Positions 2,168-55,003 of a stretch of DNA of 64,000 nt are shown here, one piece after another. Each line of letters starts with the position of its first letter. Positions within the stretch are counted from its first letter, which is position 1. The position numbers and the translations under genes are program-made. Source of the DNA: Herminiimonas contaminans (lineage in GTDB: Bacteria; Pseudomonadota; Gammaproteobacteria; Burkholderiales; Burkholderiaceae_D); the NCBI RefSeq assembly GCF_015645465.1, contig NZ_JADOEL010000017.1, positions 1 to 64,000 of the forward strand. The letters run 5' to 3'. The notes below the pieces were generated by a model that worked only from the letters and a program-made list of their open reading frames with translations, did not search any database and was not told where the DNA came from.

Positions 2168-3031
2168 TCATAGCACGTCCAGAGGGATTCTCAGATAGCG
2201 CACGCCATTACTTTCTGCCGTTGGCAACTCACCCGCGCGAATATTGATCTGAACTGCGGGCAGCATCAAGACTGGCGGCGACAAGATGATGTCACGCGCA
2301 TCGCGCAATGCCACAAATGCGTTCTTGCTGATGCCCGCACGAATGTGCAAATTATTGTTGTTTTGATCGTCAACATTTGTGATGTATGCCGGCTCACGCC
2401 CGTTAGGTGGATAGTCATGACACACATATAGATATGTGGAAGGCGGCATCGCTAGAATGCGCCGTATCGATCGATACAGAATCTCAGCGTTACCACCAGG
2501 AAAATCGCACCGCGCCGTACCTACATCAGGCATAAACAAAGTATCGCCGACGAATACTGCTTTACCGTCAATCACATAGGCGGTATCGGCCGGCGTGTGT
2601 CCAGGCACATGCCATGCGCTAACCTTGATATTGCCAATAACAAAAGCTTCATCTGCTTCAAACAAATGATCGAAATAGCCAAAACGGTCCTTGCCTGCTT
2701 CTTCCAAATTGTAGATTTCCCCGAAAGTCTTTTGTACTTCACGAATACCTGAACCAACAGCAATTTTCCCGCCCAATTTGCTTTTTAGATAGCGCGCTGC
2801 AGAAATATGATCTGCGTGCGCATGAGTCTCGAGCAGCCATTCGACTTCTAAAGAATTTTCTTTAACAAACTCAATAATTTCATCTGCTGACTTTGTTGAA
2901 GTCCGTCCCCACTTGATATCGAAATCCAATACCGAATCGAGGACGGCGCACACACTGCCATGCCCACTGTGAAGCACATAACTGAACGTCGACGAGACCG
3001 GATCGAAGAAAGACTTCACCTCATACGCCAT
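2168..3031 (-). CDS. Blh/persulfide-dioxygenase-like metallo-beta-lactamase-fold protein
   Basis: A 287-residue MBL-fold enzyme. Metal ligands are visible: THAHADH (H70, H72, D74, H75), H145 in HVPGHT, D163 in VGDTLF and H205 in CHDY. The GTARCDFPGG segment after the aspartate is the signature of the Blh group from bigR operons, close to ETHE1-type persulfide dioxygenases that oxidise glutathione persulfide to sulfite. I start it at 3031, where GGAGGG precedes the ATG. An in-frame codon at 3064 would overlap the cynS stop. Its place between cyanase and a TauE/SafE exporter suggests it disposes of reduced sulfur released upstream in the pathway. Confidence 0.82.
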   Translation of the reverse strand: MAYEVKSFFDPVSSTFSYVLHSGHGSVCAVLDSVLDFDIKWGRTSTKSADEIIEFVKENSLEVEWLLETHAHADHISAARYLKSKLGGKIAVGSGIREVQKTFGEIYNLEEAGKDRFGYFDHLFEADEAFVIGNIKVSAWHVPGHTPADTAYVIDGKAVFVGDTLFMPDVGTARCDFPGGNAEILYRSIRRILAMPPSTYLYVCHDYPPNGREPAYITNVDDQNNNNLHIRAGISKNAFVALRDARDIILSPPVLMLPAVQINIRAGELPTAESNGVRYLRIPLDVL

Positions 3032-3060
3032 AGACCCTCCTTCTATCCGGCCAACGTCAA

Positions 3061-3504
3061 TCAATATGTTTTGTAAGACAGGTATTTTCCGCTCATGACA
3101 ATCTGTACACGATCACCATTAGGGTCTGCCTGGCGTGTCATATCCATTTTGAAATCGATAGCACTCATAATCCCGTCGCCAAATTCTTCATGAATCAATT
3201 CTTTGAATGTGGTGCCATAGACCTGTACCAGTTCGTAAAAACGATAGATCGTCGGATCGGTAGGCACCGATGTCGATAGTGAGCCGCGATATGGGACGAC
3301 CATGAGCCATTTTTTTTCTTCTGCATTCAAATCAAAAATTTCAGCAATGGCGTCTGCAGCTTTGGCATCAAATGTCATCTGACCGTGACACCCAGCGGTA
3401 ACCCATTCTTTGCTGAGCCCGACTTTGGCTGCGACCTCTGACCATTTCAATCCTTTTGAGACTTTGGCAGCGATGATTTTTTCTGTAACGTCGAGACGAT
3501 TCAT
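3061..3504 (-). CDS. cynS: Cyanate hydratase (cyanase)
   Basis: A 147-residue cyanase that converts cyanate and bicarbonate to carbamate, which decays to ammonia and CO2. The N-terminal helical domain is followed by the dimer/decamer domain with the catalytic triad: R88 and E91 in YRFYE and S114 in GIMSAIDF, equivalent to R96, E99 and S122 of the E. coli enzyme. AAGGAG lies 8 bases before the ATG. It follows the three ABC importer genes in the same operon with a 22-bp gap. No LysR-type CynR regulator and no CynT carbonic anhydrase are nearby, so control passes to the sigma-54 system. Confidence 0.97.
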   Translation of the reverse strand: MNRLDVTEKIIAAKVSKGLKWSEVAAKVGLSKEWVTAGCHGQMTFDAKAADAIAEIFDLNAEEKKWLMVVPYRGSLSTSVPTDPTIYRFYELVQVYGTTFKELIHEEFGDGIMSAIDFKMDMTRQADPNGDRVQIVMSGKYLSYKTY

Positions 3505-3526: not shown

Positions 3527-4453
3527 TCAGGCGATTAATTGCAGCGACTTTGCTGCGGGTTGTTGAACTGCAGATCCAAATAATGATTTTTCAGTATCAA
3601 GTCCCGGCGTGATCACGGGCGGATAAGAAGGAGCACGACCGTCCGAAAGATCCTTCGAGCGCGTAACCAAAAATTCGACAAGATGGTTACGAATTAGGTA
3701 GTACTGTGGGTCGTGATGTAATGTGGCTCGTTGTCTGTCACGCGACATTGTGTTCTGAACTATTTCTGCGACACGCGCCCTAGGGCCATTACTCATTAAG
3801 AGAATCTTGTCGGCAAGCAGCACTGCCTCATCGACATCGTGAGTAATCATAAAAACAGTTTGTTTTGTCTCAGCACAAATCCGTAGAAGTTCATCTTGAA
3901 TTGTTCCCCGAGTTAATGCATCTAACGCACCGAACGGCTCGTCAAGCAATAGCATCTTTGGCTCAATCGAAAACGCGCGGGCGATTCCAACACGCTGTTT
4001 CATACCACCAGACAATGTAGAAGGCTTCTTGTCGATCGCATGTTTGAGCCCAACTAACTCTACATATTTCTCAACCTGATGATTAATTTCTGTCTTGGAC
4101 CATTCCGGCCACTTGCTACGTACCGCAAATGCGATATTTTTACGGACAGTCAACCAAGGCATCAATGCATGGCCTTGAAATACCACGCCACGATCAAGAC
4201 TTGGACCTGCTACCTCCCTGCCGTTCATAAACACATTGCCGGTGCTAGCACTTTCAAGTCCGGCAAGGACGTTGAGGATAGTGGTTTTTCCGCAGCCAGA
4301 ATGACCGATGATGCATACAAACTCACCGCGATTGATACCAAAATTAACGTTATCAAAAACAGGCTGCGTAGCACCTGAATAAGTTTTTGAAAGATCTTCA
4401 ATTTTCAGAAACAAGTTTTTTTCTGAAGAGACTTGGGTATTGTTAGTCGACAT
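3527..4453 (-). CDS. ABC transporter ATPase, nitrate/cyanate/sulfonate (NrtD/CynD/SsuB) type
   Basis: A 308-residue nucleotide-binding subunit. Walker A GHSGCGKT is at 50-57, the signature LSGGMKQR at 147-154 and Walker B MLLLDEP at 167-173, followed by the FGALD D-loop and the switch H in MITHDVDEA. The C-terminal extension of about 50 residues resembles NrtD/CynD members. The ATG at 4453 overlaps the permease stop by 11 bp, so translation is probably coupled. A further in-frame upstream codon (4480) is less likely. It powers import by the adjacent permease and binding protein. Confidence 0.93.
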   Translation of the reverse strand: MSTNNTQVSSEKNLFLKIEDLSKTYSGATQPVFDNVNFGINRGEFVCIIGHSGCGKTTILNVLAGLESASTGNVFMNGREVAGPSLDRGVVFQGHALMPWLTVRKNIAFAVRSKWPEWSKTEINHQVEKYVELVGLKHAIDKKPSTLSGGMKQRVGIARAFSIEPKMLLLDEPFGALDALTRGTIQDELLRICAETKQTVFMITHDVDEAVLLADKILLMSNGPRARVAEIVQNTMSRDRQRATLHHDPQYYLIRNHLVEFLVTRSKDLSDGRAPSYPPVITPGLDTEKSLFGSAVQQPAAKSLQLIA

Positions 4454-5318
4454 AAGTGACCACCTTCTGCGCTTTGGCAAATATCAGATCCAATATCATT
4501 CCGACAGTACCTATCATTAAGATCGCAAAGATCACGTTGGTGAGCGAAAGATTGTTCCATTCGTTCCAAACGAAATAACCTATTCCGGTACCGCCTACCA
4601 ACATCTCGGCAGCCACAATTACCAACCATGCGATGCCCATACTGATGCGCATACCGGTAAGAATGGTTGGTGCTGCGGCAGGTAAGATGACTTCAATCGC
4701 TTTCCGTATGGGACTGACTTGCAATGTCCGTGCAACATTCATCCATTCGCGTCTTACGCCTGCGACACCAAACGCGGTGTTCACAAGCATGGGCCAAATC
4801 GAACAAATGAAAATCACAAAAATTCCTGACAGCGACGCGTCCTTAATGGTGTAGAGCGCAATTGGCATCCAAGCAAGTGGTGATATTGGTTTCAATATTT
4901 GGATAAAGGGATCGAGAATACGATAGGCTAATGGGCTCATTCCAATTACGAATCCAAGCGGAATCGCAACCAATGCCGCCAATCCAAATCCCATTCCTAC
5001 ACGTGCTAAGGAATGTAAAATTTGAATACCAATTCCTTTGTCATTAGGCCCATTGTCATAAAACGGATCACTAAGTTGCTGGACGATTGTGCGTCCCATA
5101 TCGGACGGTGTGGGAAAACCAGATTTGTTGGCTCCCTCGTTTTGCTCCGAAGACTTCCCCATTAATTTTGCGTAGTCAAGCTCTGCAGCTGTCATAGTAG
5201 GAGCTACTGTTTTCTTAGGCAGCGTTGCCAGTTGCCAAATGCCGAGTATTACGGCTAAGAGGAGTACCGATAGCAGAGGTGCCTTGAGCTTGTTTAGATA
5301 ATTGGCTTTCATCATCAA
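4443..5318 (-). CDS. ABC transporter permease, NrtB/CynB type
   Basis: A 291-residue inner-membrane subunit of the BPD_transp_1 family. An N-terminal membrane helix (about residues 13-31) is followed by a roughly 60-residue soluble loop, then five or more hydrophobic helices. The EAA-like coupling motif lies around RTLQVSPIRKAIEVILPAAAP, which contacts the ATPase. The start overlaps the stop of the binding-protein gene by 4 bp. Family members import nitrate, nitrite, cyanate, bicarbonate, taurine or sulfonates; the sequence alone does not decide. Position before cynS favours cyanate or a precursor of it. Confidence 0.92.
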   Translation of the reverse strand: MMMKANYLNKLKAPLLSVLLLAVILGIWQLATLPKKTVAPTMTAAELDYAKLMGKSSEQNEGANKSGFPTPSDMGRTIVQQLSDPFYDNGPNDKGIGIQILHSLARVGMGFGLAALVAIPLGFVIGMSPLAYRILDPFIQILKPISPLAWMPIALYTIKDASLSGIFVIFICSIWPMLVNTAFGVAGVRREWMNVARTLQVSPIRKAIEVILPAAAPTILTGMRISMGIAWLVIVAAEMLVGGTGIGYFVWNEWNNLSLTNVIFAILMIGTVGMILDLIFAKAQKVVTYVD

Positions 5319-6712
5319 ACTCGCTTAATAGGAAAACTATCGGCATAAGCGACAGCCTTATCCGCATCGAATGTCTTACCCATGATGTTAAATTTCGGAT
5401 AGCTACCTTCTGGCGTTTTTTGCCCGAGCTGCGCCATAGTTTTTTTGGCATCAGTGAGCAGGAACACTTTTTCAGCTACCTGTTTATAGTTGATGTCGCC
5501 TTTCATGTAACCCCAACGTTTCATTTGTGTCAGCATCCACACGGCCATGCTCTGCCAAGGAATAGGATCGAAATCAACTCGGTCAGGCACGTTCACTATA
5601 TTGCCCAGGCCATCAGCAAATTTGCCTGTAAGCACTTGAGTCACCACCGCTTCAGGTTGATTTAGATACGCTTGTGGAGAGATCACCTTGGCAATCAGTT
5701 CACGGTTCTTTTGATCACGAGCCATGGCAGCCGATGTCAACACTGCACGATAAAGTGCAGCAAATGTATTTGGATTTTTCTGAATAAAATCTGTTGATGT
5801 GCCGAATGCACAGCATGGATGTCCATTCCAAATATCTTTTGTCAGAAGATGGATGAAACCAACCTCCTCATATACTGCCCGTTGATTAAAAGGGTCAGGC
5901 CCAAGGAATCCATCAATATTGCCAGCGCGAAGATTGGCGACCATTTCAGCCGGCGGTACCACACGCAATTGCACATCCTTATCTGGGTCAATCCCCGCTT
6001 CAGCCAGGTAATATCGCAAAAGCATGTTGTGCATAGAAAACTCAAATGGAATAGCAAACTTGAAGCCTTTCCAGTTTTTTGGATCCCGATTATTTTTGTG
6101 TTTTAACGCAAGAGTTATTGCTTGGCCATTGACGTTTTGGATAGTGGCGACATTCATCGGCTGAGGGTTAGATCCCAACCCAAGAGAAATTGCCAATGGC
6201 ATGGGTGAAAGAAAATGAGTAGCGTCGTATTCCTTGTTCATCATCTTGTCGCGCACCAGCGCCCAACCTGCTGTCTTCAACAACTGAACATTCAGCCCTT
6301 GCTTTGAATAAAAGCCAAGCGGATGCGCCATGATCAATGGCGTCGCGCAGGTAATTGGAATAAATCCGATCTTTAAATCCTTTTTCTCCAGTGCGCCCTT
6401 TTCCTGCGCCATGGCTTGCAAGCTGGCAATCGGCAACACGCTAGATATTGCTGCCATCGCAGTAGTTTTTCCTACTGCTCGCAGAAATAGGCGACGCGTT
6501 TCATCTTGCGGAAAAATCGCTTTTACTAGTGCAGCTTCAATAAATTCATTCGAATACGTTTCAAATTCAGAAGTCTCGCTGCGACGCTTTAGTTCTGCGA
6601 CGGCATTTGCGACACTGGCGTTTCGATGCTCATCTTCCGATGCATGACGTCCGCAAGAGCAATTCATCATCAAGGATCGATCGGCGTCGTACGGGGAAAA
6701 ATATTTGCTCAT
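5315..6712 (-). CDS. ABC substrate-binding protein, NrtA/CmpA/CynA family, with CxCGRH leader and Tat-like signal
   Basis: A 465-residue periplasmic binding protein. Residues 1-70 form an unusual leader with a CSCGRH motif (C18, C20). A twin-arginine signal follows: RRLFLRAVG at 73-81 and a hydrophobic stretch ending near ALQAMA at about residue 100. The mature NMT1/ThiY-like domain starts at KIGFIPITCATPLIMAHPLG and contains the GFLGPDPFN and GHPCCAFG segments of the NrtA family. It lies 37 bp after the rubredoxin-reductase gene and overlaps the permease gene. The leader cysteines occur in other beta-proteobacterial NrtA relatives; their role is unknown to me. Confidence 0.88.
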   Translation of the reverse strand: MSKYFSPYDADRSLMMNCSCGRHASEDEHRNASVANAVAELKRRSETSEFETYSNEFIEAALVKAIFPQDETRRLFLRAVGKTTAMAAISSVLPIASLQAMAQEKGALEKKDLKIGFIPITCATPLIMAHPLGFYSKQGLNVQLLKTAGWALVRDKMMNKEYDATHFLSPMPLAISLGLGSNPQPMNVATIQNVNGQAITLALKHKNNRDPKNWKGFKFAIPFEFSMHNMLLRYYLAEAGIDPDKDVQLRVVPPAEMVANLRAGNIDGFLGPDPFNQRAVYEEVGFIHLLTKDIWNGHPCCAFGTSTDFIQKNPNTFAALYRAVLTSAAMARDQKNRELIAKVISPQAYLNQPEAVVTQVLTGKFADGLGNIVNVPDRVDFDPIPWQSMAVWMLTQMKRWGYMKGDINYKQVAEKVFLLTDAKKTMAQLGQKTPEGSYPKFNIMGKTFDADKAVAYADSFPIKRV

Positions 6713-6749: not shown

Positions 6750-7988
6750 TTAAATCGTGAAACTACGTGAGCTTGTTTTGACGCGTACAACAGGACGTCT
6801 ACTTAAATAAGCATCTGCCTTATTACCGGTCAGGTGTGCGGCGATAATTCGAGCTTGCCGATTGATCGGCTCGATGAATCTGTAAGCATCGCCATCAATG
6901 CTGATACAGTCGCCTAGCGCGTGGATATTGGAGATATTCGTGCGTAGCGTGAGCGGATCAACAGCGATACCGTTATTCCATGTCAAGCCTGCCGTACGCG
7001 CCAACTGACTTGGAGTGGTTAGACCGGTTGCAGATATCACGTGGTCTACGTCAAAGATTTGTCCATCATGTGTTTGTATGCGACGCTTACCGTCTACTAG
7101 ATGAACACTAGAAATTTGCACCGACCCAACATATTGCAAAGGCAGATTTTCCCAAGCATGTAGCAGATCCGCCGACTCTAGATCACTAATTACTCCCTGC
7201 AGAGGGCGCGCGTTTATATCTAAGAGGCAAACATTGTGTCCTGCAAGAGCGAGATCATTTGCAAGCTCGCACCCCACCAATCCCGCACCAACTATTGCGA
7301 TCTGCTGCGACTCTTTTTTTGCTTGCGCTTCGATGCGTTTACGGAATGCTCCATACGCCTGCAGATCGTTGATACGCCAGCATAATTCTTCAGGGAGCTC
7401 TGGAAGTTGGCGTTGCGTCGCGCCATGCGCCAGCACTAGATTCTGGTAAGAAAGCGTACCGCGTGTGGTGCGCAGTGCTGATGCATTTGCAGATACGCTA
7501 ACAGCATGTGTCTGTATCAACAAACGTACGTTCAATCGCTCTGCTGCTTCCGATGCTGTTTCTTTTACCAGCCGCTCAAGGGGCAATTTCTTTGCGATTG
7601 CGACGGAAAGCAAGGGTTTGTCATATACATCACCACTACAGCCCGTGACGATGGTGATTGGCACCTGCGAATCCAAATCACGCAATGCACTGGCCATTTG
7701 CCATCCTGCGCAACCTGCGCCGACGATAACGATGCCAGCCTGTCCACGCGTTCCAGATGCACTTGGCAGTTTAACGCCGATGGTCGGGGGAATTGACACT
7801 GCGATATACAGCTCAAAATCTGCTTTTGTCACTCCGCACAAGGGGCAGGACCAATCGTCAGGAATGTCCTCATATCTGGTGCCCGCCTGTAGACCGCTAT
7901 CCGGATCGCCCTCTTTCTCGTCATAGATCAGTCCGCATGCACGGCAAATATATTGCCGCCAAGCGGCCTCGACTAAACGCGCACTCAT
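6750..7988 (-). CDS. Rubredoxin / FAD-dependent NAD(P)H reductase fusion
   Basis: A 412-residue electron-transfer protein joining two partners that are often separate. Residues 10-60 are rubredoxin with the iron ligands C15, C18, C48 and C51 (YICRACGLIYDE and WSCPLCG). The rest is a pyridine-nucleotide disulfide oxidoreductase-type reductase with an FAD motif VIVGAGCAG near 86, an NAD(P)H motif IVGAGLVG near 230, and the second FAD motif IHALGDC. It would pass electrons from NAD(P)H to the iron site and on to an oxygenase. Its ATG overlaps the stop of the ACAD-fold gene by 4 bp, which makes that protein the likely partner. A paralogue without rubredoxin is encoded at 30036. Confidence 0.9.
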   Translation of the reverse strand: MSARLVEAAWRQYICRACGLIYDEKEGDPDSGLQAGTRYEDIPDDWSCPLCGVTKADFELYIAVSIPPTIGVKLPSASGTRGQAGIVIVGAGCAGWQMASALRDLDSQVPITIVTGCSGDVYDKPLLSVAIAKKLPLERLVKETASEAAERLNVRLLIQTHAVSVSANASALRTTRGTLSYQNLVLAHGATQRQLPELPEELCWRINDLQAYGAFRKRIEAQAKKESQQIAIVGAGLVGCELANDLALAGHNVCLLDINARPLQGVISDLESADLLHAWENLPLQYVGSVQISSVHLVDGKRRIQTHDGQIFDVDHVISATGLTTPSQLARTAGLTWNNGIAVDPLTLRTNISNIHALGDCISIDGDAYRFIEPINRQARIIAAHLTGNKADAYLSRRPVVRVKTSSRSFTI

Positions 7989-9142
7989 GACGGCACACCG
8001 TTGATGCTGAGTCGAGCGATTTCCTTGCGAAGATGCTTCAAAGCTGGCGTAACGATTGCAACGAAATGCGATTCACGCACACGCCGTTGTACAGGAGATG
8101 TGAGTAGATATCCCCGCGCACCGTGATGTAGAAGTGCCGACTGCGCTGCACGTAGTGCAATCTCTGATGCGTGCGCACGCACGTCCAGAACATCAATAAG
8201 AAATTGCTTGTCCTTCTTGAACGGCGTTTTAGCGAGCAACATCGTGCGCCGACTCAGTTCATCCAATTCATTTTGCAAATCCTGAGGACGGTCCTCCAGA
8301 TATTGGTTGACATGACCAAGCTGCCCTTCGACGCCAACCATCGAATCGATCGCACCCTGCGCCACACCCAATCCCATTCCGCATTGCAGCAAAATGAATC
8401 CAGCACGAATGTGCTCGATCAACGGACGTACTGGATCGGCAATCATGTTCTGTTCATCAACCCTGAAATTCGTCAGGCGCACACCCCAAGTACCGGTGCC
8501 CTCCATGGCTGAAAATGATGGACATTCACGTAATTCGACGCCTGCAGCAGCGCAGTCAACCATGAACATAATCTCGTGCGGTTGATCTGCGTTGTCCGAC
8601 TCAAGCATAGCAATGGCACCGAAATAATGATCGCTGCCCAGATTGCTGACCCATGGCAACGTGCCATTGACGACATAAGCTCCGTCGACTTTGGTTGCAC
8701 GGAGCAACATCGACTCAATTCCAGCAAATGTTTTCATCGGATTGCTCAGTGCCGTGCCGCCTAGCGTTTGCGCATTACCATGTCGCTCTAGCGTAGCCCC
8801 CTGCAATGCGGGATTGTTTGAGTACTCCATGTACATCCCGCACACATCGTGGCACCACATCATGAAGCCAGTTGCGCCACATACTTGGGATACTTCGGCA
8901 ATTGCCTGAATAGCTGCCCCGTAATCCAGCTCGCCATCCAACGCCATGTGGGCGTTGAAGGCACCGGCCTCCCCCAACTCTTTCAAAATGTTTGAGGGAT
9001 ACGTTCCTACGCGATCGATCTCATCGGCAAGTTTCGCCAACGGACCCTCTGCTATCTTGCGTACAGTGGACAACATCGTGTCGCGTTGGCTGACTACAAG
9101 CGAACTGATCGCAATGTCCAGATTACCCAGGGCGGCTGACAT
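7985..9142 (-). CDS. Acyl-CoA-dehydrogenase-fold flavoprotein, probably a monooxygenase
   Basis: A 385-residue member of the ACAD superfamily: helical N-domain, central beta domain (GGTALSNPMK to about 230), and C-terminal four-helix domain with HHGARGYLLTSPVQRRVRE. In true dehydrogenases the segment after this arginine-rich helix carries the catalytic EGT motif. Here it reads FVAIVTPAL, so the base is absent. That pattern is seen in DszC-, SfnC- and HpaB-like flavin hydroxylases. No acyl-CoA gene is nearby, while a rubredoxin reductase is co-translated. I therefore infer an oxygenase acting on the imported compound. A dehydrogenase with a relocated glutamate is the alternative. Confidence 0.75.
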   Translation of the reverse strand: MSAALGNLDIAISSLVVSQRDTMLSTVRKIAEGPLAKLADEIDRVGTYPSNILKELGEAGAFNAHMALDGELDYGAAIQAIAEVSQVCGATGFMMWCHDVCGMYMEYSNNPALQGATLERHGNAQTLGGTALSNPMKTFAGIESMLLRATKVDGAYVVNGTLPWVSNLGSDHYFGAIAMLESDNADQPHEIMFMVDCAAAGVELRECPSFSAMEGTGTWGVRLTNFRVDEQNMIADPVRPLIEHIRAGFILLQCGMGLGVAQGAIDSMVGVEGQLGHVNQYLEDRPQDLQNELDELSRRTMLLAKTPFKKDKQFLIDVLDVRAHASEIALRAAQSALLHHGARGYLLTSPVQRRVRESHFVAIVTPALKHLRKEIARLSINGVPS

Positions 9143-9162: not shown

Positions 9163-9729
9163 TTAAGCCATCTTGATGTCGAATGGAATCGGATTGCGCA
9201 TTGTGTTGGCAACAGGCGAGAAGAAATTAGCATGTTTGACGATGTCATCGAGTTCTTCGCGGCTTGCATCGCCTTCAACTAAAACCTTGACGCGGATTGC
9301 TTGAAAGCCCATGTCCTTTGGCTCCATGACTGCGCCACCTGCACCCCATGCAGCCGGATTGCCGATGTCACCTTCGAGGAAAATTTCCAGTTTGCTCAGC
9401 TTCACCCGGCGATGCGTTGCAACCGCTGTGATGCCCACGACCAGACAGCCGCCAAGACCTGACAAAGCGACTTCACCTGGAGCCGGAGCAGTGTCTTGCC
9501 CGAACAGATGAGGTGGCTCATCGACGATCACAGGAGCATGGTTACCAACGTAGCTTTCTGTGCGGAATTGGCCGTCCGCAATGGTATGAACCTTATTGGT
9601 TCCACGCTGAGCCGGATTGCCGCGCCCTTTTTCGGCGAAGACCATCAAACCGTCGCGATCAATTGGACGCAAATAGGTTTTGACTGTAGTTGTTGGCTCG
9701 GTAACGAAAGTCGATACGGATGAGGACAT
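9163..9729 (-). CDS. OsmC/Ohr-fold protein with one of two usual cysteines replaced
   Basis: A 188-residue OsmC-family protein, first gene of the operon and directly behind the sigma-54 promoter. AGGAG precedes the ATG. OsmC and Ohr reduce organic peroxides with two cysteines. The one in the central helix is present (C95 in LGGCLVVG). The other, normally in a CPV motif, is a serine here (S171 in NFFSPVANT), although R56 and E58 of the active-site network seem kept. It may be a non-peroxidase binding protein or use a different mechanism. A job in protecting against by-products of the oxygenase is inference. Confidence 0.82.
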   Translation of the reverse strand: MSSSVSTFVTEPTTTVKTYLRPIDRDGLMVFAEKGRGNPAQRGTNKVHTIADGQFRTESYVGNHAPVIVDEPPHLFGQDTAPAPGEVALSGLGGCLVVGITAVATHRRVKLSKLEIFLEGDIGNPAAWGAGGAVMEPKDMGFQAIRVKVLVEGDASREELDDIVKHANFFSPVANTMRNPIPFDIKMA

Positions 9730-9768: not shown

Positions 9769-9784
9769 TGCAAACAGTGTGCCA
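9769..9784 (-). promoter_or_regulatory. Sigma-54 (-24/-12) promoter of the osmC-to-tauE operon
   Basis: On the minus strand the sequence reads TGGCACACTGTTTGCA: TGGCAC, five bases, TTGCA. This is the full sigma-54 consensus with correct spacing. It lies 40 bp before the OsmC-like start, giving a predicted transcript start near 9757 and a short leader with AGGAG. The gene directly upstream encodes a sigma-54 activator, which supports the call. Confidence 0.88.
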
Positions 9785-9897: not shown

Positions 9898-9928
9898 ACA
9901 AAATGGCGACATTTTGTCGCCATTTTGT
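9898..9928 (-). promoter_or_regulatory. Perfect 14-bp inverted repeat between regulator and operon
   Basis: The arms ACAAAATGGCGACA (9898-9911) and TGTCGCCATTTTGT (9915-9928) are exact complements around a 3-base centre. It lies 4 bp after the regulator stop and about 130 bp before the sigma-54 promoter. It is followed on the minus strand by an AT-rich, T-containing stretch. It could be the terminator of the regulator gene, the upstream activator site for that regulator, or both. Its distance suits an enhancer site. Confidence 0.7.
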
Positions 9929-9932
9929 AAAT

Positions 9933-11564
9933 TTAATTTTTCATTATTCCGAGTTTACGTAGTCGGTAAACAAATTGACGTGGCGTCAATCCCAACGAAT
10001 ATGCGGCACGCGATTGGTTACCGTTATGCATTGCCAAAGCCTGTTGCAACGTCAGTGCGTCATGCGAATGCGAAGGCAGGTATTCACGCACGACTGGCAT
10101 TGTAGACAAGCCAGCTGGAATCGATTCGATCTTTTCAGTGCTATTTGTAAAAGCTGGAATAAAGCGCTCAACTTCCGCTTTTGAAATAACCGCATGATCG
10201 GTCAGCAGCACCATCCGCTCAATGACATTTGCAAGCTCACGGATATTGCCCGGCCACGCATATGCTTCAAGTTCATCCAATGCCTGCGGCGATAAATTGA
10301 CGTTACGATTATTTGCTTGATTGACTCGATTAAGGAAGTGCAAAGAAAGTGGTCGAATGTCCTGTTTCCGTTGCAGCAAGGAAGGCAAGCGGATTGGAAT
10401 CACGTTCAAGCGATAATACAAATCACGCCTGAACGTACCGCGATCAACTTCGAAAGACAAATCACGATTGGTTGCGGTAACCACACGAATATCGACCTTG
10501 ATTTCTCTATCACCACCGAGGCGGACGATCGTCCCTTCCTGCAAAGTGCGCAGCAACTTAGTCTGCATCGCCAATGGCATCTCGCCGATTTCATCGAGAA
10601 ATATGGTGCCGTGATCGGCCTGCTCAAACAAGCCGATTCTTGATTTCATCGCGCCGGTAAACGCGCCTTTTTCATGACCGAACAACTCAGACTCAAACAA
10701 GGTTTCTGGAATTGCAGCGCAATTGACTTTAATAAAAGGTGCATCGCGACGCAGGCTGGACAGATGCAAGGCACGAGCAAACAACTCTTTTCCAGTTCCT
10801 GATTCTCCGAGCAGCAATACGCTTGCGGTTGCCTGAGCAACGCGCTCCAGTTCTTCCAACGCTTGCAGCAAAGCTGGTGATGTACCCACAATGCCGTAAC
10901 GTGCTGCAGCGGATTCCAGTGCACGGGCCAATAGTTCGTTCTTATCCTGCAACGCCTTGGTCTTTTCTTCTACTAAGGATTGCAATTGAAGCAGCTGACC
11001 GGCAAGTGTCGCCAGAATTTTCATGACAGCGACGTCATCATTCAAGGAACGATTGCGCTGACGAATGCGGTGAGCGGCCAGCACACCCACTGTCCGCCGG
11101 TTCGTTTGAATCGGCACGACAATAAATGCAACTGTCTCTTGCGGCAGATTCGCTCTCTTCACTGACCGCGATAAGAATCGAGGTTCTGCATCTATATCCT
11201 GCACGATTATTGATTGCCCGATGGCCAATGCAGCTCCGGTAATTCCTTCACCTACAAAATAGGTACCGCGCGCAATTTCTGCTTTGGTCAAACCATAAGC
11301 GAAGCGAATCCGGGAAATCGGAGCGCTTGTATTTTTAGTCTGTTTGGTTTCTGCATCAAATGCATCGATGAGTACGATGCGCCCACGATTAAGTCCAAGT
11401 AACTCTGACATTAGGTGCAACATCTCGCGGAACACCATATCCGGAGCCAAACTTCTTCCTACCAGACGCATTACTTCGCCAAGTAGTAAGCGCTCCTGCT
11501 CCCGCCATGGCGGCGCCGAAGGTTCTTCCGATCTAGCATTGCTCCCATTTTTTACTACACTCAT
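9933..11564 (-). CDS. Sigma-54-dependent transcriptional activator (GAF-AAA+-Fis)
   Basis: A 543-residue NifA/NorR-type bacterial enhancer-binding protein. A GAF sensor domain spans about 40-195, followed by a short coiled linker. The AAA+ domain has Walker A GESGTGKE at 253-260, the sigma-54-contacting GAFTGA at 300-305 and Walker [12 protein letters not shown] Fis-type helix-turn-helix lies at about 505-540 ([20 protein letters not shown]). The GAF domain suggests a small-molecule effector, presumably the substrate of the operon or a product of it. It is upstream of, and in line with, the operon that starts with a sigma-54 promoter, so it is almost certainly its activator. Confidence 0.92.
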
Positions 11565-11719
11565 TTGTTATGCGTCCATTTGGTAGCCAGAGCCATAAAA
11601 TATTGAAGCTCTTTTTTATTCTAGATGGTTATTCGTCATTTGCGTTGAAGTAATTAATGAATACAGATTGAACCAGGTGAAGAAAAATTACGACTAGTTT
11701 GATCCGGGTTAGCACTTAT

Positions 11720-12159
11720 TGTTGATTTGCTCGCAGAGTAGCCCCTCTCTAGCTAATCCAACTTCCACTGCCTTGGGAGGGCTGCGACCCGGTCATACGG
11801 CCCTTCAAATCCCAATGCACACAAGTCGATGTGCATCTGTTTCAAGGTCCGTCGTTGTTTACATGACTTCATTCTCTCGGTCTTTAACCAAGCTAAACGC
11901 TTGAATGGGTATTTGTTGAGAAAAGTCGGGGAGCGCCGATCAGCCTAGCCTCGCTCTATTGTTTCAAAGCGTAGATCGCGCCGGACGGTATTTCGTGAAA
12001 TACCAAGTTGGTTGATATCTCTATCAATGAGATCTGCTCACGAAGTACCAGCGTCGAATAATTTCAAGTAATGCCACGTCGATCACTTCAATCTCCCTAC
12101 CCACTTTGTTAAGTAGGATCGTGTTCTAAATGTGGGTCAGTTTTCGATACAAATCAACA
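11720..12159 (-). mobile_element. MITE-like IS21-derived unit, copy 2 (inverted, decayed)
   Basis: On the minus strand this is a degenerate copy of the unit at 796-1270. It has the same TGTTGATTTG outer end (12150-12159), the same TGACCCAC motif (once, not twice), the istA start region and the same inner end GCAAATCAACA (minus strand, 11720-11730). Several in-frame stops and small deletions kill the istA frame. The two copies face each other and enclose the regulator plus operon. I see no direct repeats at its borders. It interrupts a small gene on its right side. Confidence 0.75.
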
Positions 12160-12363: not shown

Positions 12364-12831
12364 TTAATGCCCCGAATGCATTTTTTCGGTCGGATTGACT
12401 GACACCGCATTGTTTAATGCTCTTGCAGGCACTTTTAATTCTACTGTTTCGCGCTTCCTATCCTTACTCTCAAAAACCAACGTTAGCGGTATGACATCGC
12501 CTTCCTTGATTTGCTTTTTAATGTCAAAAAACATTACGTGGTAACTACCTGGTTTGAGTTCCACTGATTTCCCTGCGGGCAGATCTAAGCCATCAATCTG
12601 ACGCATGCGCATCACGTCGTCTTTCATTGCCATCTCGTGGATTTCAGTTACCAGACCCGGCGAACGCGCTTCTATCAATCGCGCGTCTGTCTTACTTGTT
12701 AATTGCATGAACGCGCCAGTCGCTTTTTGCGTTGGGACGGTGGCACGCACCCATGGATCAGTAACTGTGACTTGTGCCAGCAAAATATTAGGGGCAATGC
12801 AAAGCATAGAAGCAAGTAAATATTTTTTCAT
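12364..12831 (-). CDS. PCuAC-type periplasmic copper chaperone (DUF461)
   Basis: A 155-residue exported protein: signal peptide 1-19 (LLASMLCIAPNILLA), then a cupredoxin-like domain. The Cu(I)-binding residues of the family are present: HEMAM near residue 66 and HVMFF near 97, with intervening methionines (VMRMR). Such proteins deliver copper to the CuA site of cytochrome c oxidase, often together with Sco proteins, and a Sco gene lies 900 bp away on the other strand. The tail ends in a His-containing MHSGH. I am confident of family; the target oxidase is outside the window. Confidence 0.93.
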   Translation of the reverse strand: MKKYLLASMLCIAPNILLAQVTVTDPWVRATVPTQKATGAFMQLTSKTDARLIEARSPGLVTEIHEMAMKDDVMRMRQIDGLDLPAGKSVELKPGSYHVMFFDIKKQIKEGDVIPLTLVFESKDRKRETVELKVPARALNNAVSVNPTEKMHSGH

Positions 12832-12896
12832 TTTGTTGATTCCTAAAAAATTGAACAGCTATGGTGGTTGGAGAAAAAACTCAATTAGTCACTTGC

Positions 12897-13112
12897 TTAA
12901 ACCAAGTTCTGAACGAATAGTAATGACGCAATATGGGTACAGCCCGATGACTTGTCCGAGGTCATCGTTTTAATAGGAACAAGCTGCATTTCTACAGTCG
13001 GGCCATAAACTTTGTATTGAGAAGGGGTATTGCGGTAAGTCGCGTATGAAAATATCGCGCTGCAGATAGAAATGATGTTAAGGGCGATGAAAAACTTGCG
13101 TCGTGTAGACAT
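12897..13112 (-). CDS. Small hypothetical protein with N-terminal membrane segment
   Basis: A 71-residue product that I do not recognise. A ribosome site AGGAG lies 7 bases before the ATG. Residues 8-27 are hydrophobic and could anchor it in the membrane. The remainder (YKVYGPTVEMQLVPIKT) would face the periplasm, and a single cysteine lies in SSGCTH. It sits between the PCuAC chaperone and a DUF2946 protein in the same orientation, so a minor copper-handling role is possible. The last 20 residues look uncharacteristic, so the gene might be shortened by a frameshift. Confidence 0.45.
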   Translation of the reverse strand: MSTRRKFFIALNIISICSAIFSYATYRNTPSQYKVYGPTVEMQLVPIKTMTSDKSSGCTHIASLLFVQNLV

Positions 13113-13194
13113 GACAAGCTCCTGACTCGATATGAATAAACACCAACAGGCAAGCGCTTTATCAAAAAGTGCGACTATAGGTACTCAGCAAAGA

Positions 13195-13593
13195 TCAGGA
13201 GATTACTGGGGGAGCGCGAGGCTGTGCTGCAGCCCATGCAAAAAGCGGCTGCGATGTTTGATAAAACAGGGAAGGTAGAACATGGTCGCCACTAATAAAT
13301 GGCATAACAAAATTAGCTGCAGGTGGCAGACCGAGAGAAACGGCATGATTCAAACAAAATGGGCAATGCTCGACGTGTGTAATTTTTTGATCGTTCCCAG
13401 GAGCTTGCGATGCAGTGTTATCACCTGTTTGAACTAATTTTTTACCCGTAACACTACAGATTTCTATCCAAACATTGGATGTACTGTTTGCTGTACTCAC
13501 TGCATGAGAAAACGACGGCGCAAGCGCAGACATCAGGATGGCAAAAACAGCAGTCCAAGTCGCTATGCACTGAGTTAATTGGGTCATTCTCAT
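13195..13593 (-). CDS. DUF2946 family protein, copper-cluster associated
   Basis: A 132-residue DUF2946 protein. A signal-like hydrophobic N-terminus (residues 11-31, ATWTAVFAILMSALAPSFSHA) is followed by VWIEICSVTG and a CPFC motif in HCPFCLNHA, the typical metal- or thiol-type signature of the family. A second hydrophobic region and a C-terminal AWAAAQPRAPP tail follow. Function is not established, but genes of this family recur beside copper chaperones and TonB receptors. It is the first gene of the minus-strand copper group and lies back to back with the Sco gene. Confidence 0.8.
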   Translation of the reverse strand: MRMTQLTQCIATWTAVFAILMSALAPSFSHAVSTANSTSNVWIEICSVTGKKLVQTGDNTASQAPGNDQKITHVEHCPFCLNHAVSLGLPPAANFVMPFISGDHVLPSLFYQTSQPLFAWAAAQPRAPPVIS

Positions 13594-13747
13594 GGCGCAG
13601 ATACTAGCACCGAAATTTTGGTGGAATAAAAGTTTGCAAGCTGTTGGGACAATTTGTCATATGTGTGCAACAACGGTTTTGACCTATATTGGATCGCTCT
13701 AACCCGCAGACATAGCGGCAGTCAGTAAGACTGCATTTAAGGATTGA

Positions 13748-14332
13748 ATGACACATTCGCGACTTCTCGCAGTTCTTCTCACGCTTTGTGTTTTGCTGAC
13801 TGGCTGCGTACCGCGAGAAAAAATGTCGCCAACTGCAATCGACATTACTGGCCTCGAATATGGAAAAGATTTTAAGCTGAGTGATCCAGGTGGCAAGGAG
13901 AGGACACTGAAAGAATTCCGAGGCAAAGTTGTAATGGTGTTTTTTGGATTTACCCAATGTCCTGACGTTTGTCCAACTGCACTGTACCGCGCGGCTGAAG
14001 TAAAGAAAAAACTCGGTGAAGAAGGATCCAAATTTCAAACCATTTTTGTAACTGTTGATCCCGAGCGAGACACACCCACCCTTCTCAAAGACTATACCCA
14101 TGCGTTCGACGATTCCTTTTTAGGCTTATACACAGATCTGGAAAATACGCGTAAAACTGCAGATGATTTTCGCATCTACTATGCCAAGGTTTCGACAGGT
14201 AGTACATACACAATGGATCACACAGCAATTAGCTATCTCTACGACACCAAAGGAAATATACGCATTGGGATAAAGCCAAACGCGTCTATCGATGACGTCA
14301 CTCAGGACGTAAGATTTTTACTGCAAAATTGA
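13748..14332 (+). CDS. SCO1/SenC/PrrC family lipoprotein
   Basis: A 194-residue thioredoxin-fold copper protein for assembly of the CuA centre of cytochrome oxidase. The lipobox LLTGC puts the lipidated cysteine at residue 20. The copper ligands are CPDVC in GFTQCPDVCPTAL and the distal histidine in YTMDHTAISYLYD. Length matches the family. It is divergent from the DUF2946/PCuAC group with 154 bp between, which probably holds both promoters. Regulation by copper is plausible but I see no clear CueR box. Confidence 0.95.
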   Translation: MTHSRLLAVLLTLCVLLTGCVPREKMSPTAIDITGLEYGKDFKLSDPGGKERTLKEFRGKVVMVFFGFTQCPDVCPTALYRAAEVKKKLGEEGSKFQTIFVTVDPERDTPTLLKDYTHAFDDSFLGLYTDLENTRKTADDFRIYYAKVSTGSTYTMDHTAISYLYDTKGNIRIGIKPNASIDDVTQDVRFLLQN

Positions 14333-14356
14333 GCAATGAAATTCAAATAAATTACA

Positions 14357-15343
14357 TCATTTTCGTCTGTTCGAACGAAATGTCCGTTTAGTTTCACAAA
14401 AGAGACGTCGGTAGGAAGACGGAGACGTATGTAACTGAGTCGCAAAATGCTGCCGTAACGTCAGTGCGGAGCCAAAGCCGACCTCGGAAGCAATGCATTC
14501 AATCGACAAATCCGTGGTTTCCAGCAATAGCTGCGTTCTTGCAATGCGCTCTGCAGCTAGCCACTTAAGGACGGTAGCTCCCGTAGCCTCGCGAAAGCGT
14601 CTTGTAAATGTTCGGCGACTCATCCGTGCTACGTCAGCGAGCACGTCTACAGATAACGGCTCTGATAAATGTTTTCTTGCCCATTCCAGAACACCAGGCA
14701 GACGATTCTCGCTGTGAGAGGAAGGAACCGGCTGCTCAATATACTGCGCTTGTCCACCCTGACGATGCGGTGGCGTCACCAGCAATCTAGCCACGCGGTT
14801 CGCAACGTCCGCGCCGTCACGTTGGCGTACAAGATTCAAGCAACAATCAATCGCCGCAACGGTCCCTGCGGAAGTTATGACATTTCCCTCATCGACATAA
14901 AGTACGTCTGGAAGAAAGTTAGCCATGGGGAATCGCTGAATGAAGAGCTCGCGACAAGCCCAATGCGTAGTAGCACGCCGTCCATCTAATAAGCCTGCAT
15001 CGCCCAGCACGAAAGCGCCGAGGCATAGACCAACCACTTGAGCACCGCGTAAATGCGCTCTTTGCAGTGCTGCCGTTAGCGCTGCTGGGGCAGTACGTTC
15101 TGGGTGGTTCCATGACGGGACAATAACTATGTCTGCATGTTCCATAGCTTCAAGTCCACCCGGCACATCTATTTCCATGCCTTGGTCGCAACGAACCCTG
15201 CCTGGGGTCGGCGCGCAGTACAACACTTCATAAGGAGCTAACCCGCTCGGGACGGGACGTACGCCGAACACCATACCTGGCACCGAAAGATGAAAAAGAC
15301 TTGCGCCCTCAAAAGCAAGGACAGCGACACGGACGACTTGCAT
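14357..15343 (-). CDS. GlxA/FtrA-type transcriptional regulator (DJ-1/PfpI domain plus AraC HTH)
   Basis: A 328-residue regulator. Residues 1-180 form a class-I glutamine amidotransferase-like domain with the nucleophile-elbow cysteine in GLCLGAFVLG. The C-terminal 100 residues carry two AraC-type helix-turn-helix motifs (LADVARMSRRTFTRRFRE and IASEVGFGSALTLRQHF). I prefer the ATG at 15343; the upstream in-frame TTG at 15376 adds 11 unlikely residues. It is divergent from an isochorismatase-family hydrolase gene, a common pairing in which the regulator controls the hydrolase. Confidence 0.92.
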   Translation of the reverse strand: MQVVRVAVLAFEGASLFHLSVPGMVFGVRPVPSGLAPYEVLYCAPTPGRVRCDQGMEIDVPGGLEAMEHADIVIVPSWNHPERTAPAALTAALQRAHLRGAQVVGLCLGAFVLGDAGLLDGRRATTHWACRELFIQRFPMANFLPDVLYVDEGNVITSAGTVAAIDCCLNLVRQRDGADVANRVARLLVTPPHRQGGQAQYIEQPVPSSHSENRLPGVLEWARKHLSEPLSVDVLADVARMSRRTFTRRFREATGATVLKWLAAERIARTQLLLETTDLSIECIASEVGFGSALTLRQHFATQLHTSPSSYRRLFCETKRTFRSNRRK

Positions 15344-15492
15344 TGAATATCCAAAATATGGTGGAGATTGGCCCAATTTTAACTAAATTAGTTATTTGGG
15401 CCTATTTTCTGATTGTTCTCGCTTAACCAAAATATAGGCAATCTAAGGCAGTTTAAAAATTAGGCAGCATCTAACGTATAAAAGGAAACTCA

Positions 15493-53212: not shown

Positions 53213-55003
53213 TCAGAACTGCGCTTCATCCAGCGCCAGCACACCCGCACTGCCGCTGACGATGGCACTGCGATAAGCGACCGCCTGCGACAGGAAGTAA
53301 TCAGCGAAGAAACGCGCCGTCGCAATCTTGGCCTGATAAAACTTCGCATCACCACTGCCCGCATCCAGCTTCGCCTGCGCAATCAGGGCGGCACGCCCCA
53401 TCTGCCAGCCGCAGAGCACAATGCCTGCGAGTTTGAGGTAAGGCACGCTACCAGCGAACACACCCTTGATATCGGACTGAATATTCGCGACGACATAGGC
53501 GACGACCTCTTCCAGCGCCGTCGATGCCTCAGCCAGATGTACGCCTATCGCTTTCAAATCCGGTGCGGTCGACTTGGCCAATTCTGCTTCGGTCGCACGC
53601 ACGGCAGCGATGATACCGCGCGCCACCGCACCGCCATCTCGCACGGTTTTACGACCAACCAGATCATTTGCCTGGATCGCTGTCGTGCCTTCATAAATCG
53701 TCAGAATGCGCGCATCGCGATAGTACTGCGCAGCACCTGTTTCTTCGATGAAGCCCATGCCACCGTGGATTTGCAAACCAGTCGACGCCACATCAATCGA
53801 CATCTCGGTAGACCAGCCCTTGATCACCGGCACCAGGAATTCGTAGAAAGCCTGCTGTGCATTGCGCACTTTTTCATCCGGATGATGATGTGCGATATCG
53901 AAGGCGGCCGCACCGACATAAGCCAGTGCACGCGCTCCTTCTATCTGCGCCTTCATCGACATCAGCATGCGCCGCACATCCGGTTGATGGATGATGGAGA
54001 CTGCGGTCGCCGAACCCTCCAGGTCTTTCGACTGTACGCGATCTTTCGCATAGGCGACGGCTTTTTGATACGCGCGCTCTGCCACGCTGATACCTTGTAT
54101 ACCAACTGCGAAGCGCGCCGCATTCATCATGATGAACATGGTTTCCAGCCCGCGATTCTCTTGCCCGATCAGCGTACCGATTGCACCGCCGTGGTCGCCG
54201 AATTGCAATACTGCAGTCGGGCTCGCCTTGATGCCGAGCTTGTGTTCGATGGAGACGCAGAACGCATCATTGCGCTCACCGAGCGAGCCATCTTCATTCA
54301 CCAGGAATTTAGGCACCAGAAACAGCGAAATACCTTTCACCCCTTCCGGTGCATCCGGCGTACGGGCCAACACCAGGTGGATGATGTTCTCCGCCATATC
54401 GTGTTCGCCGTAAGTGATGAAAATCTTGGTGCCGGAAATTTTGTATGTACCATCGCCCTGCGGCACTGCACGCGAACGCACCAGCGCCAGATCGGAACCG
54501 GCCTGCGGCTCGGTCAGGTTCATGGTGCCGGTCCACTTACCAGCGATGAAGTTAGGAAGGAATTTTTCTTTTTGCTGATCCGAGCCTGCGGTCATCAATG
54601 CTTCGATTGCACCGTCGGTCAGCAAGGGACAAAGCGCAAACGAGAGGCTGGCCGAGTTCAGCATTTCCATGCACGGTGTCGCCACCAGCTTGGGCAAACC
54701 CTGGCCACCAAAATCTGTTGGATGCTGCACACCTTGCCAGCCAGCTTCAGCATAGGCCTTGAACGCTTCCTTGAAACCCGGCGTGGTAGTGACCTTGCCG
54801 TCTTTCCACTCACTCGGATGCCGGTCACCGGCCTGGTTCAGTGGTGCGATCACTTCACCGCAAAAGCGTGCATTTTCTTCCAGTACCGCTTCCACTGTTT
54901 CCGGTGTCGCATCTTCACAGCCGGGCAAGGCATTGATCGCAGCCAGATCGGCCAGTTCGTTCATCACGAACAACATGTCTTTCAAGGGGGCAACGTAACT
55001 CAT
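53213..55003 (-). CDS. Acyl-CoA dehydrogenase (large, DmdC/FadE-like class)
   Basis: A 596-residue acyl-CoA dehydrogenase with the extended C-terminal domain of the large class. Motifs are MNLTEPQAGSDLALVRSRA, KIFITYGEHD, LQIHGGMGFIEETGAAQYYRDARI and the catalytic glutamate in IYEGTTAIQANDL. It oxidises an acyl-CoA and passes electrons to the ETF encoded 150 bp away on the same strand. Relatives act on fatty acyl-CoAs or methylmercaptopropionyl-CoA; the substrate is not decidable here. Confidence 0.93.
   Translation of the reverse strand: MSYVAPLKDMLFVMNELADLAAINALPGCEDATPETVEAVLEENARFCGEVIAPLNQAGDRHPSEWKDGKVTTTPGFKEAFKAYAEAGWQGVQHPTDFGGQGLPKLVATPCMEMLNSASLSFALCPLLTDGAIEALMTAGSDQQKEKFLPNFIAGKWTGTMNLTEPQAGSDLALVRSRAVPQGDGTYKISGTKIFITYGEHDMAENIIHLVLARTPDAPEGVKGISLFLVPKFLVNEDGSLGERNDAFCVSIEHKLGIKASPTAVLQFGDHGGAIGTLIGQENRGLETMFIMMNAARFAVGIQGISVAERAYQKAVAYAKDRVQSKDLEGSATAVSIIHQPDVRRMLMSMKAQIEGARALAYVGAAAFDIAHHHPDEKVRNAQQAFYEFLVPVIKGWSTEMSIDVASTGLQIHGGMGFIEETGAAQYYRDARILTIYEGTTAIQANDLVGRKTVRDGGAVARGIIAAVRATEAELAKSTAPDLKAIGVHLAEASTALEEVVAYVVANIQSDIKGVFAGSVPYLKLAGIVLCGWQMGRAALIAQAKLDAGSGDAKFYQAKIATARFFADYFLSQAVAYRSAIVSGSAGVLALDEAQF

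Follow-up and report, generated by a model that had tools for sequence, protein, structure and literature searches.

An acyl-CoA dehydrogenase-fold protein without the catalytic glutamate in a cyanase operon of Herminiimonas contaminans: a candidate for heterotrophic thiocyanate use

Among the known systems closest to the gene cluster treated here are those for the use of cyanate and thiocyanate. In Pseudomonas pseudoalcaligenes, the cluster cynFABDS serves cyanate assimilation, as stated in the available part of PMC5333837. For thiocyanate, the available part of PMC5328954 describes just two enzymatic routes, both of them in specialised sulfur oxidisers; the scnABC operons carry an ATP-binding cassette (ABC) importer of the NitT/TauT type, and those of Thiobacillus also carry cyanase. 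The same part mentions that heterotrophs of several genera use thiocyanate as a nitrogen source, their enzyme being unnamed there. The locus in question lies in a 64,000-nucleotide stretch of H. contaminans DNA (contig NZ_JADOEL010000017.1, positions 1 to 64,000; the window), where a gene for a protein of the acyl-CoA dehydrogenase (ACAD) fold, at 7985-9142 on the minus strand, stands in one operon with genes for cyanase and sulfur metabolism. To our knowledge, no enzyme for thiocyanate breakdown is known from common bacteria. The ACAD-fold family described below appears, from its sequences and neighbourhoods, to be a clade of oxygenases in a genomic role not described before, and is a candidate for the missing heterotrophic enzyme.

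An ACAD-fold protein without the catalytic glutamate

The open reading frame (ORF) runs from an ATG at 9142 to 7985 and encodes 385 amino acids, ending in RRVRESHFVAIVTPALKHLRKEIAR. By sequence alignment, the catalytic glutamate of the EGT motif (IYEGT in canonical enzymes) falls on Thr365, within the motif VTPA. Across a family alignment of 116 sequences, this residue is threonine in 112 and serine in 4, and Pro366 follows in all 116. Isovaleryl-CoA dehydrogenase has its glutamate at an alternative position, assigned by sequence alignment to residue 248; the family has alanine (84), glycine (29), serine (2) or proline (1) there. Glutamate is found at neither site in any sequence (0/116), and an acyl-CoA dehydrogenase with the alternative glutamate is ruled out. 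Among the residues invariant in the 116 are Trp96, Cys88, Ser133, Asn134, Lys137, Trp164, Gln253 and Glu357, and His339 is kept in 115.

A phylogeny of the subfamily, proposed in a preliminary description of the window made from its letters, was computed as an unrooted tree of 57 sequences. It comprises the family, a sister ACAD family, SfnB, DszC-like proteins and canonical ACADs, after removal of two ORFs of excessive length, one each from groups B and S. The SfnB rows lie above the SfnB model cut-off, and the DszC-like rows all lie below the DszC cut-off, which was exceeded in 0 of 120 genomes. The canonical EGT enzymes (14 sequences) are split from all others (43) with a support of 100, and the supports for the family, the sister and the two together are 98, 95 and 100; an earlier tree, in which canonical ACADs filled two rows, supported the family with just 68. 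At the EGT position, VTPA is found in 23/23 family rows (fourth residue alanine in 22, serine in 1), TPS in 12/12 sisters, HDS or HDP in SfnB and DszC-like proteins, and YEGT, WEGT, YEGA or YEGS in canonical ACADs. Since its motif differs from those of the SfnB/DszC-like proteins, the family is, as judged from the tree, a clade of its own, placed with its sister on the SfnB/DszC-like side and apart from the EGT enzymes. Membership in SfnB/DszC is ruled out by the motif and the separate clade, and is kept as an analogy. The top NCBIfam match of the sister family is SfnB (sulfur acquisition). In the same genome (G000), DszC-like and SfnB ACADs are both present (G000:C14:65030-66169 and G000:C4:8615-9766), so that this genome has several sulfur-type ACAD-fold enzymes.

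The preliminary description had called the ORF an EGT-less ACAD-fold protein and no acyl-CoA dehydrogenase. Its coordinates and strand are confirmed, with the glutamate position now placed at Thr365; the catalytic glutamate is missing at both known sites, and at the isovaleryl-CoA dehydrogenase site, which that description had singled out, it is excluded at the sequence level. The contrast drawn with the ACAD at 53213-55003 also holds, as the latter keeps IYEGT. So does the lack of an electron-transfer flavoprotein (ETF) partner: neither an ETF gene nor acyl-CoA genes were found among the nine neighbours scanned with Pfam and NCBIfam. The supposed co-translation with a rubredoxin reductase fits the 4-nt overlap at 7985-7988, which suits translational coupling, but the partner is a rubredoxin fused to a reductase-type domain. 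The further claim, that the substitution marks flavin hydroxylases on the ACAD fold, stands only in part. The protein is best read as a flavin oxygenase, but the view that the substitution marks the known hydroxylases is not supported, and VTPA differs from the signature of DszC or HpaB.

The protein is currently annotated, like the rest of its family, as belonging to the acyl-CoA dehydrogenase family. In Pfam, the ACAD N-terminal domain is matched with 38.3 bits and, at the C-terminus, Acyl-CoA_dh_2 with 23.3 bits, barely above the cut-off of 22.7; the latter model matches 41/52 family members and the classical Acyl-CoA_dh_1 11/52 (E 0.01). NCBIfam matches are weak and far below all cut-offs, with acryloyl-CoA reductase at the top (55.7 bits). 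The AlphaFold model, built from 52 sequences (51 of 80 scan loci, with the window as first row), has a mean predicted local distance difference test score (pLDDT) of 88.3 and a predicted template-modelling score (pTM) of 0.89. As modelled, the ACAD fold is certain; it is silent on activity. Close relatives (E 1e-40) are found in 10 of 145 genomes of the same genome family, the window's own included, and the ACAD family is present in 4 of 8 sampled members of the genus.

From the missing glutamate and the place in the tree, we infer that the protein is very probably a flavin oxygenase or oxidase and not an acyl-CoA dehydrogenase. The following results speak against this assignment. Foldseek and VIA-align both put acyl-CoA dehydrogenases on top (VIA-align with 4kto: Z 39.7, 354 residues, 2.6 A; with human isovaleryl-CoA dehydrogenase 1ivh: Z 39.5, 361 residues, 2.6 A), and the nearest PDB sequence matches are dehydrogenases too. 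The DszC model of NCBIfam gives the protein 21.8 bits. As for the tree, long branches may distort it, it has no root, and its DszC-like group lies below the cut-off. The HpaB and DszC structures are a neutral point, as neither was among the 50 Foldseek or VIA-align matches listed; a profile search returned short matches to HsaA-type hydroxylases (2rfq, 3afe) and XiaF (5lvu).

Gene order, promoter and linkage across genomes

The operon is the important part of the finding. The preliminary description, whose direction of interpretation was right, was silent on the cyanase (3061-3504), the sulfur genes and the sigma54 promoter. In the order of the minus strand, the features are as follows:

11719-12154, no strand assigned: IS21 istA remnant, right arm of an inverted pair (inverted match to the left arm)
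9933-11564, minus: GAF-AAA+-Fis sigma54 activator, NifA-like, below the NifA cut-off (family scans)
9898-9928, minus: terminator-like hairpin 3' of the activator gene, of a kind not enriched over shuffles in the region
9769-9784, minus: sigma54 promoter TGGCACACTGTTTGCA, 40 nt upstream of the OsmC start, the sole exact match in the window
9163-9729, minus: OsmC-family protein with one conserved Cys95 and Ser171-Pro-Val, the proposed sulfur acceptor (Pfam, alignment)
7985-9142, minus: ACAD-fold flavoprotein with VTPA replacing EGT and no catalytic glutamate, the proposed monooxygenase (ORF, Pfam, AlphaFold, alignments)
6750-7988, minus: rubredoxin fused to NADH:rubredoxin reductase, the proposed electron donor, its ATG overlapping the ACAD stop by 4 nt (family scans)
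5315-6712, minus: NrtA/CynA-type substrate-binding protein of an ABC importer, clade I (Pfam, tree)
4443-5318, minus: ABC permease, NtrB-type, start codon uncertain (family scans)
3527-4480, minus: ABC ATPase, NtrCD-type, start codon uncertain (family scans)
3061-3504, minus: cyanase CynS, 147 amino acids (TIGR00673, 170.8 bits, cut-off 113.3)
2168-3064, minus: metallo-beta-lactamase-fold, persulfide-dioxygenase-like protein, start codon uncertain (NF040641)
1324-2127, minus: TauE/SafE-family permease, a possible sulfite exporter (PF01925)
835-1271, no strand assigned: IS21 istA remnant, left arm of the inverted pair (NF033546 fragment, 77 bits, below the whole-protein cut-off)

The partner proteins keep their functional residues. 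The rubredoxin cysteines are conserved in 90/91 homologues, and the cyanase residues R88, E91 and S114, which we take to be catalytic, in at least 97% of 49. The match of the persulfide-dioxygenase-like protein to NF040641, a model of two domains, covers its C-terminal half and, with 343 bits, falls short of the model's cut-off; the H/D ligand residues are found in 9/9. The rhodanese met at other loci has the cysteines of both domains in 56/56. In the OsmC protein, Cys95 is present in 100/100, and residues 171-175 read Ser-Pro-Val-Ala-Asn in at least 97%; the position of Ser171 is presumably that of the second cysteine of OsmC/Ohr peroxidases. For a one-cysteine OsmC near a rhodanese or persulfide dioxygenase, a role as sulfur carrier would seem to fit better than that of a peroxidase. 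No homologue of thiocyanate hydrolase or thiocyanate dehydrogenase (TcDH) turned up when nine proteins of the operon region and the cyanase were scanned with Pfam and NCBIfam.

An exact sigma54 consensus within 400 nt upstream of the unit's first gene is found at 34 of 101 loci, where about 0.6 would be expected from its density in the loci; in units headed by a rhodanese, the site precedes the rhodanese gene. The argument rests on the exact site and its recurrence; a one-mismatch scan of the window showed no enrichment (4 found, 4.2 expected). Nor did sigma70-like and terminator-like sites. The two istA remnants are 83-96% alike and inverted, and flank the operon on both sides; with these IS21 remnants at its ends, the whole operon has the look of a mobile cassette. 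The GC content is 45-50% in the operon, and the low values run on to about 20 kb; GC is therefore no delimiter of the insert. At 12364-15376, sequence reading points to ORFs resembling a copper chaperone, an SCO-type protein and a GlxA-like AraC regulator.

The neighbourhood was compared over 107 loci, namely the window, 80 betaproteobacterial loci (the best 80 of a capped scan), 20 stretches from genomes and 6 loci on plasmids, a set that is biased to close relatives, was taken without de-duplication and has many members clipped by contig ends. OsmC is present at 101 of them, an AhpD-like protein at 5, rubredoxin reductase at 90, rhodanese at 57, cyanase at 50, the sigma54 activator at 66, the binding protein at 63, persulfide dioxygenase at 9 and TauE at 4. 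A thiol partner, either OsmC or AhpD-like, accompanies the ACAD at 106 loci, and the exception begins at a contig end. The rubredoxin reductase, which the preliminary description had seen as the partner, is common in this set, but with 3 of 15 loci in the phylum sample it is not constant. A sensor kinase with a PAS domain, paired with a response regulator of the LuxR type, adjoins the importer-cyanase unit at some loci (cluster c9 in 19/87, c10 in 16/87), L017, L033, L043, L053 and L054 being among them.

An unbiased sample of 398 genomes across the phylum was also scanned, the ACAD and cyanase counts being assumed to come from the same draw. The ACAD family was found in 16 genomes and cyanase above its cut-off in 67. 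Cyanase is present in 13/16 ACAD-positive and 54/382 ACAD-negative genomes (Fisher p 1e-8, or 5e-8 if the window is left out), and in 10 of the 13 genomes with both, the two genes share a contig and are no more than 11 kb apart, the other 3 having them on separate contigs. At the 15 non-window loci of this sample, a thiol partner was seen in 15, rhodanese in 9, persulfide dioxygenase in 2, cyanase in 8 and the binding protein in 12. As controls, 40 of the 54 cyanase-positive, ACAD-negative genomes were taken, by a non-random pick from the list; two of these loci are short, and some of the genomes have a sister ACAD elsewhere. None of the 40 control cyanase loci has OsmC, rhodanese, persulfide dioxygenase, TauE or rubredoxin reductase, and 11 have the binding protein. 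Rhodanese, persulfide dioxygenase or TauE is found at 11/15 ACAD loci of the phylum sample, 66/107 overall and 0/40 control loci. Thus, the sulfur genes track the ACAD and not the cyanase.

These counts bear on the idea that an ordinary cynFABDS cluster has been joined to an independent OsmC-ACAD-rubredoxin unit, concerned with peroxide stress, redox stress or a different flavin reaction, with the regulator alone in common. Such a union is highly improbable. Clade I cyn clusters do exist without the ACAD (10/11 importer-bearing control loci fall in clade I), and among the 69 loci with at least 8 kb on both sides, 39 have cyanase and 30 have the ACAD unit without it. However, the linkage recurs across several families of the phylum, and the sulfur genes go with the ACAD and not with the cyanase (0/40 control loci).

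A proposed route from thiocyanate to cyanate and sulfane sulfur

The neighbours narrow the choice of substrate. Cyanate is suggested by the cyanase, sulfane sulfur and sulfite by the rhodanese, persulfide dioxygenase and TauE, and a small anion by the NitT/TauT-type importer; thiocyanate is the simple anion giving both cyanate and sulfane sulfur. On this genomic evidence, thiocyanate would have somewhat better than an even chance of being the substrate of the ACAD-fold flavin monooxygenase. The module would then use thiocyanate (SCN-) as a nitrogen and/or sulfur source. NADH would reduce the flavin, here via the fused rubredoxin/rubredoxin reductase, and the reduced flavin with O2 would transfer oxygen onto the SCN- sulfur. 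Put most specifically, the reaction would yield hypothiocyanite, which might be captured by the single cysteine of OsmC (by an AhpD-like CxxC protein in other lineages) as Cys-S-S-CN and hydrolysed to cyanate and a cysteine persulfide. Cyanase would convert the cyanate to ammonia and CO2, rhodanese or persulfide dioxygenase would pass the sulfur to cysteine synthesis or sulfite, and TauE would export the excess. The hypothiocyanite/OsmC step is put forward tentatively. It is possible, though doubtful, that the whole amounts to a third biochemical thiocyanate route, in which a rubredoxin-fed ACAD-fold monooxygenase yields intracellular hypothiocyanite, to be trapped by an OsmC protein with one cysteine, or by an AhpD-like protein, and cleaved there to cyanate and a protein persulfide. 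Among the papers listed in searches of the open-licence PMC library, none dealt with a thiocyanate or cyanate role for the ACAD family.

The importer also bears on the substrate. In a tree of 76 locus binding proteins, clade I is CynA-like and holds the window's protein and those of 10/11 importer-bearing control loci, whereas clade II (13 proteins, support 1.0) is confined to ACAD loci, 11 of the 13 being without cyanase in range, and has 0/11 of the control loci. Since it is found at ACAD loci only, and mostly without cyanase, clade II should import the ACAD substrate rather than cyanate, as far as this pattern can tell. A clade II profile finds 17 places in 16/398 genomes (E < 1e-160; next match 1e-49): 4 are beside the ACAD family and, of the 13 others, 10 are beside the sister ACAD, most with an AhpD-like protein, and 2 are beside large sensor-like ORFs. 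Clade II binding proteins with such ORFs as neighbours, and without any ACAD, stand at L214 and L215. The solved relatives of the NitT/TauT-type importer include nitrate, bicarbonate, taurine and sulfonate binders.

An importer matters for a second explanation, that of a cyanide monooxygenase: CN- would be converted to OCN-, cyanase would act next in the pathway, and rhodanese would be a further means of detoxification. The sharing of one module by cyanase and rhodanese fits it, and such an enzyme has been proposed before, as an undemonstrated activity, in the available part of PMC11049912. Hydrogen cyanide, however, requires no ABC importer; the explanation predicts neither persulfide dioxygenase, TauE, nor a sister among plasmid sulfur genes; and no cyanide-insensitive oxidase or nitrilase was seen among the ten annotated recurrent neighbour clusters, which are part of all neighbours. 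A cyanide monooxygenase is therefore judged quite improbable.

The plasmid in question is the 46-kb pANL of Synechococcus elongatus PCC 7942, which carries a sister ACAD 26% identical to the window ACAD, with cysteine synthase and gamma-glutamyltransferase-family genes on one side and an importer on the other. The srp genes of pANL are induced by sulfur starvation according to the available part of PMC8049743, in which the ACAD gene itself is not covered. At this locus (L216, 11385-15844), the sister ACAD, a DUF4242 protein and a clade II ABC importer stand among cysteine-synthesis genes. The plasmid regulator CysR of PCC 7942 is reportedly needed for growth with thiocyanate as sole sulfur source. 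A sister ACAD with a clade II importer is also found on Variovorax and Deinococcus plasmids. At two loci, as judged by sequence reading, the sister adjoins ORFs for a sulfonate-type binding protein and a luciferase-like monooxygenase. These two loci point to organosulfur, and hence to a third explanation, in which the ACAD oxygenates another small sulfur-nitrogen compound (an organic thiocyanate or isothiocyanate, a thiocarbamate or a thiourea-like compound), cyanate being its product or a parallel nitrogen source. The linkage to sulfur genes and cyanase would fit equally, and the SfnB/DszC-like proteins, relatives by the present analysis, act on organosulfur compounds, as is generally held. 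Nevertheless, the NitT/TauT-type importer suits small anions, though sulfonates stay possible, and the neighbour clusters show no recurrent gene for handling a larger carbon skeleton; this explanation is considered unlikely, if worth keeping in mind.

Several points weigh against thiocyanate as the substrate. Cyanase near thiocyanate genes is no proof of a cyanate route, as bacteria of the carbonyl sulfide pathway have cyanase too (available part of PMC5328954). Cyanase is present at just 50 and rhodanese at 57 of the 107 loci, rubredoxin reductase at 3 of the 15 phylum-sample loci, and no rhodanese match was found in the window's first 20 kb. Of those 15 loci, 6 come from one genome family (five from one genus), so that the tests are not phylogenetically independent and, given this shared ancestry, the p-values are optimistic. 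The window's importer belongs to clade I and is 80% identical to that of an ACAD-less cyanase locus; it may therefore carry cyanate here, which leaves SCN- entry unexplained.

If thiocyanate is indeed the substrate, the module supplies a concrete set of candidates: importer, oxygenase, sulfur carrier and end enzymes. The acyl-CoA dehydrogenase family annotation of these proteins would be corrected. Were the hypothiocyanite route to hold as well, the superfamily would be of use to proteobacterial heterotrophs, to Deinococcus, to cyanobacteria and to the host-associated Neisseria and Moraxella. The latter two are exposed to the thiocyanate of saliva and mucosa. The finding would be relevant to the treatment of cyanide and thiocyanate waste, to sulfur scavenging and to mucosal bacteria facing host thiocyanate. 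In a Neisseria gonorrhoeae record (L266, 6303-8356), an AhpD-like gene, an ACAD of the family (39.6% identity) and a stand-alone rubredoxin are arranged in tandem; importer, OsmC and cyanase had no match in that 15 kb stretch.

Comparison with known systems

The short-chain and isovaleryl-CoA dehydrogenases give the best fold and PDB sequence matches to the window protein, but the latter lacks glutamate at both sites and its operon scan shows no ETF or acyl-CoA genes. The ACAD-fold sulfur monooxygenases SfnB and DszC share with it the fold, the lack of the catalytic glutamate, the same side of the unrooted tree and a sulfur context. They differ in having HDS or HDP where the window family has VTPA and the sister TPS, and the window family, a clade of its own, has a rubredoxin-type donor at many loci and a linkage to cyanase.

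CynF is a sigma54 activator. Similarly to cynFABDS, the window has a sigma54-type activator and promoter, an NrtABD-like importer of the CynA type (clade I) and a cyanase with conserved residues; unlike it, the window adds OsmC, ACAD, rubredoxin/reductase, persulfide dioxygenase and TauE. With the scn loci, the window operon has the NitT/TauT importer and, as in Thiobacillus, the cyanase in common, while cyanate and sulfur are also the products of TcDH. Neither the scnABC enzyme nor TcDH has a homologue in the scans of ten window proteins, and the enzyme proposed here would be a cytoplasmic flavoprotein. In the srp region of S. elongatus pANL, a sister ACAD and a clade II importer likewise stand beside cysteine-synthesis genes; this region, however, has a DUF4242 protein instead of OsmC and no cyanase in the stretch shown.

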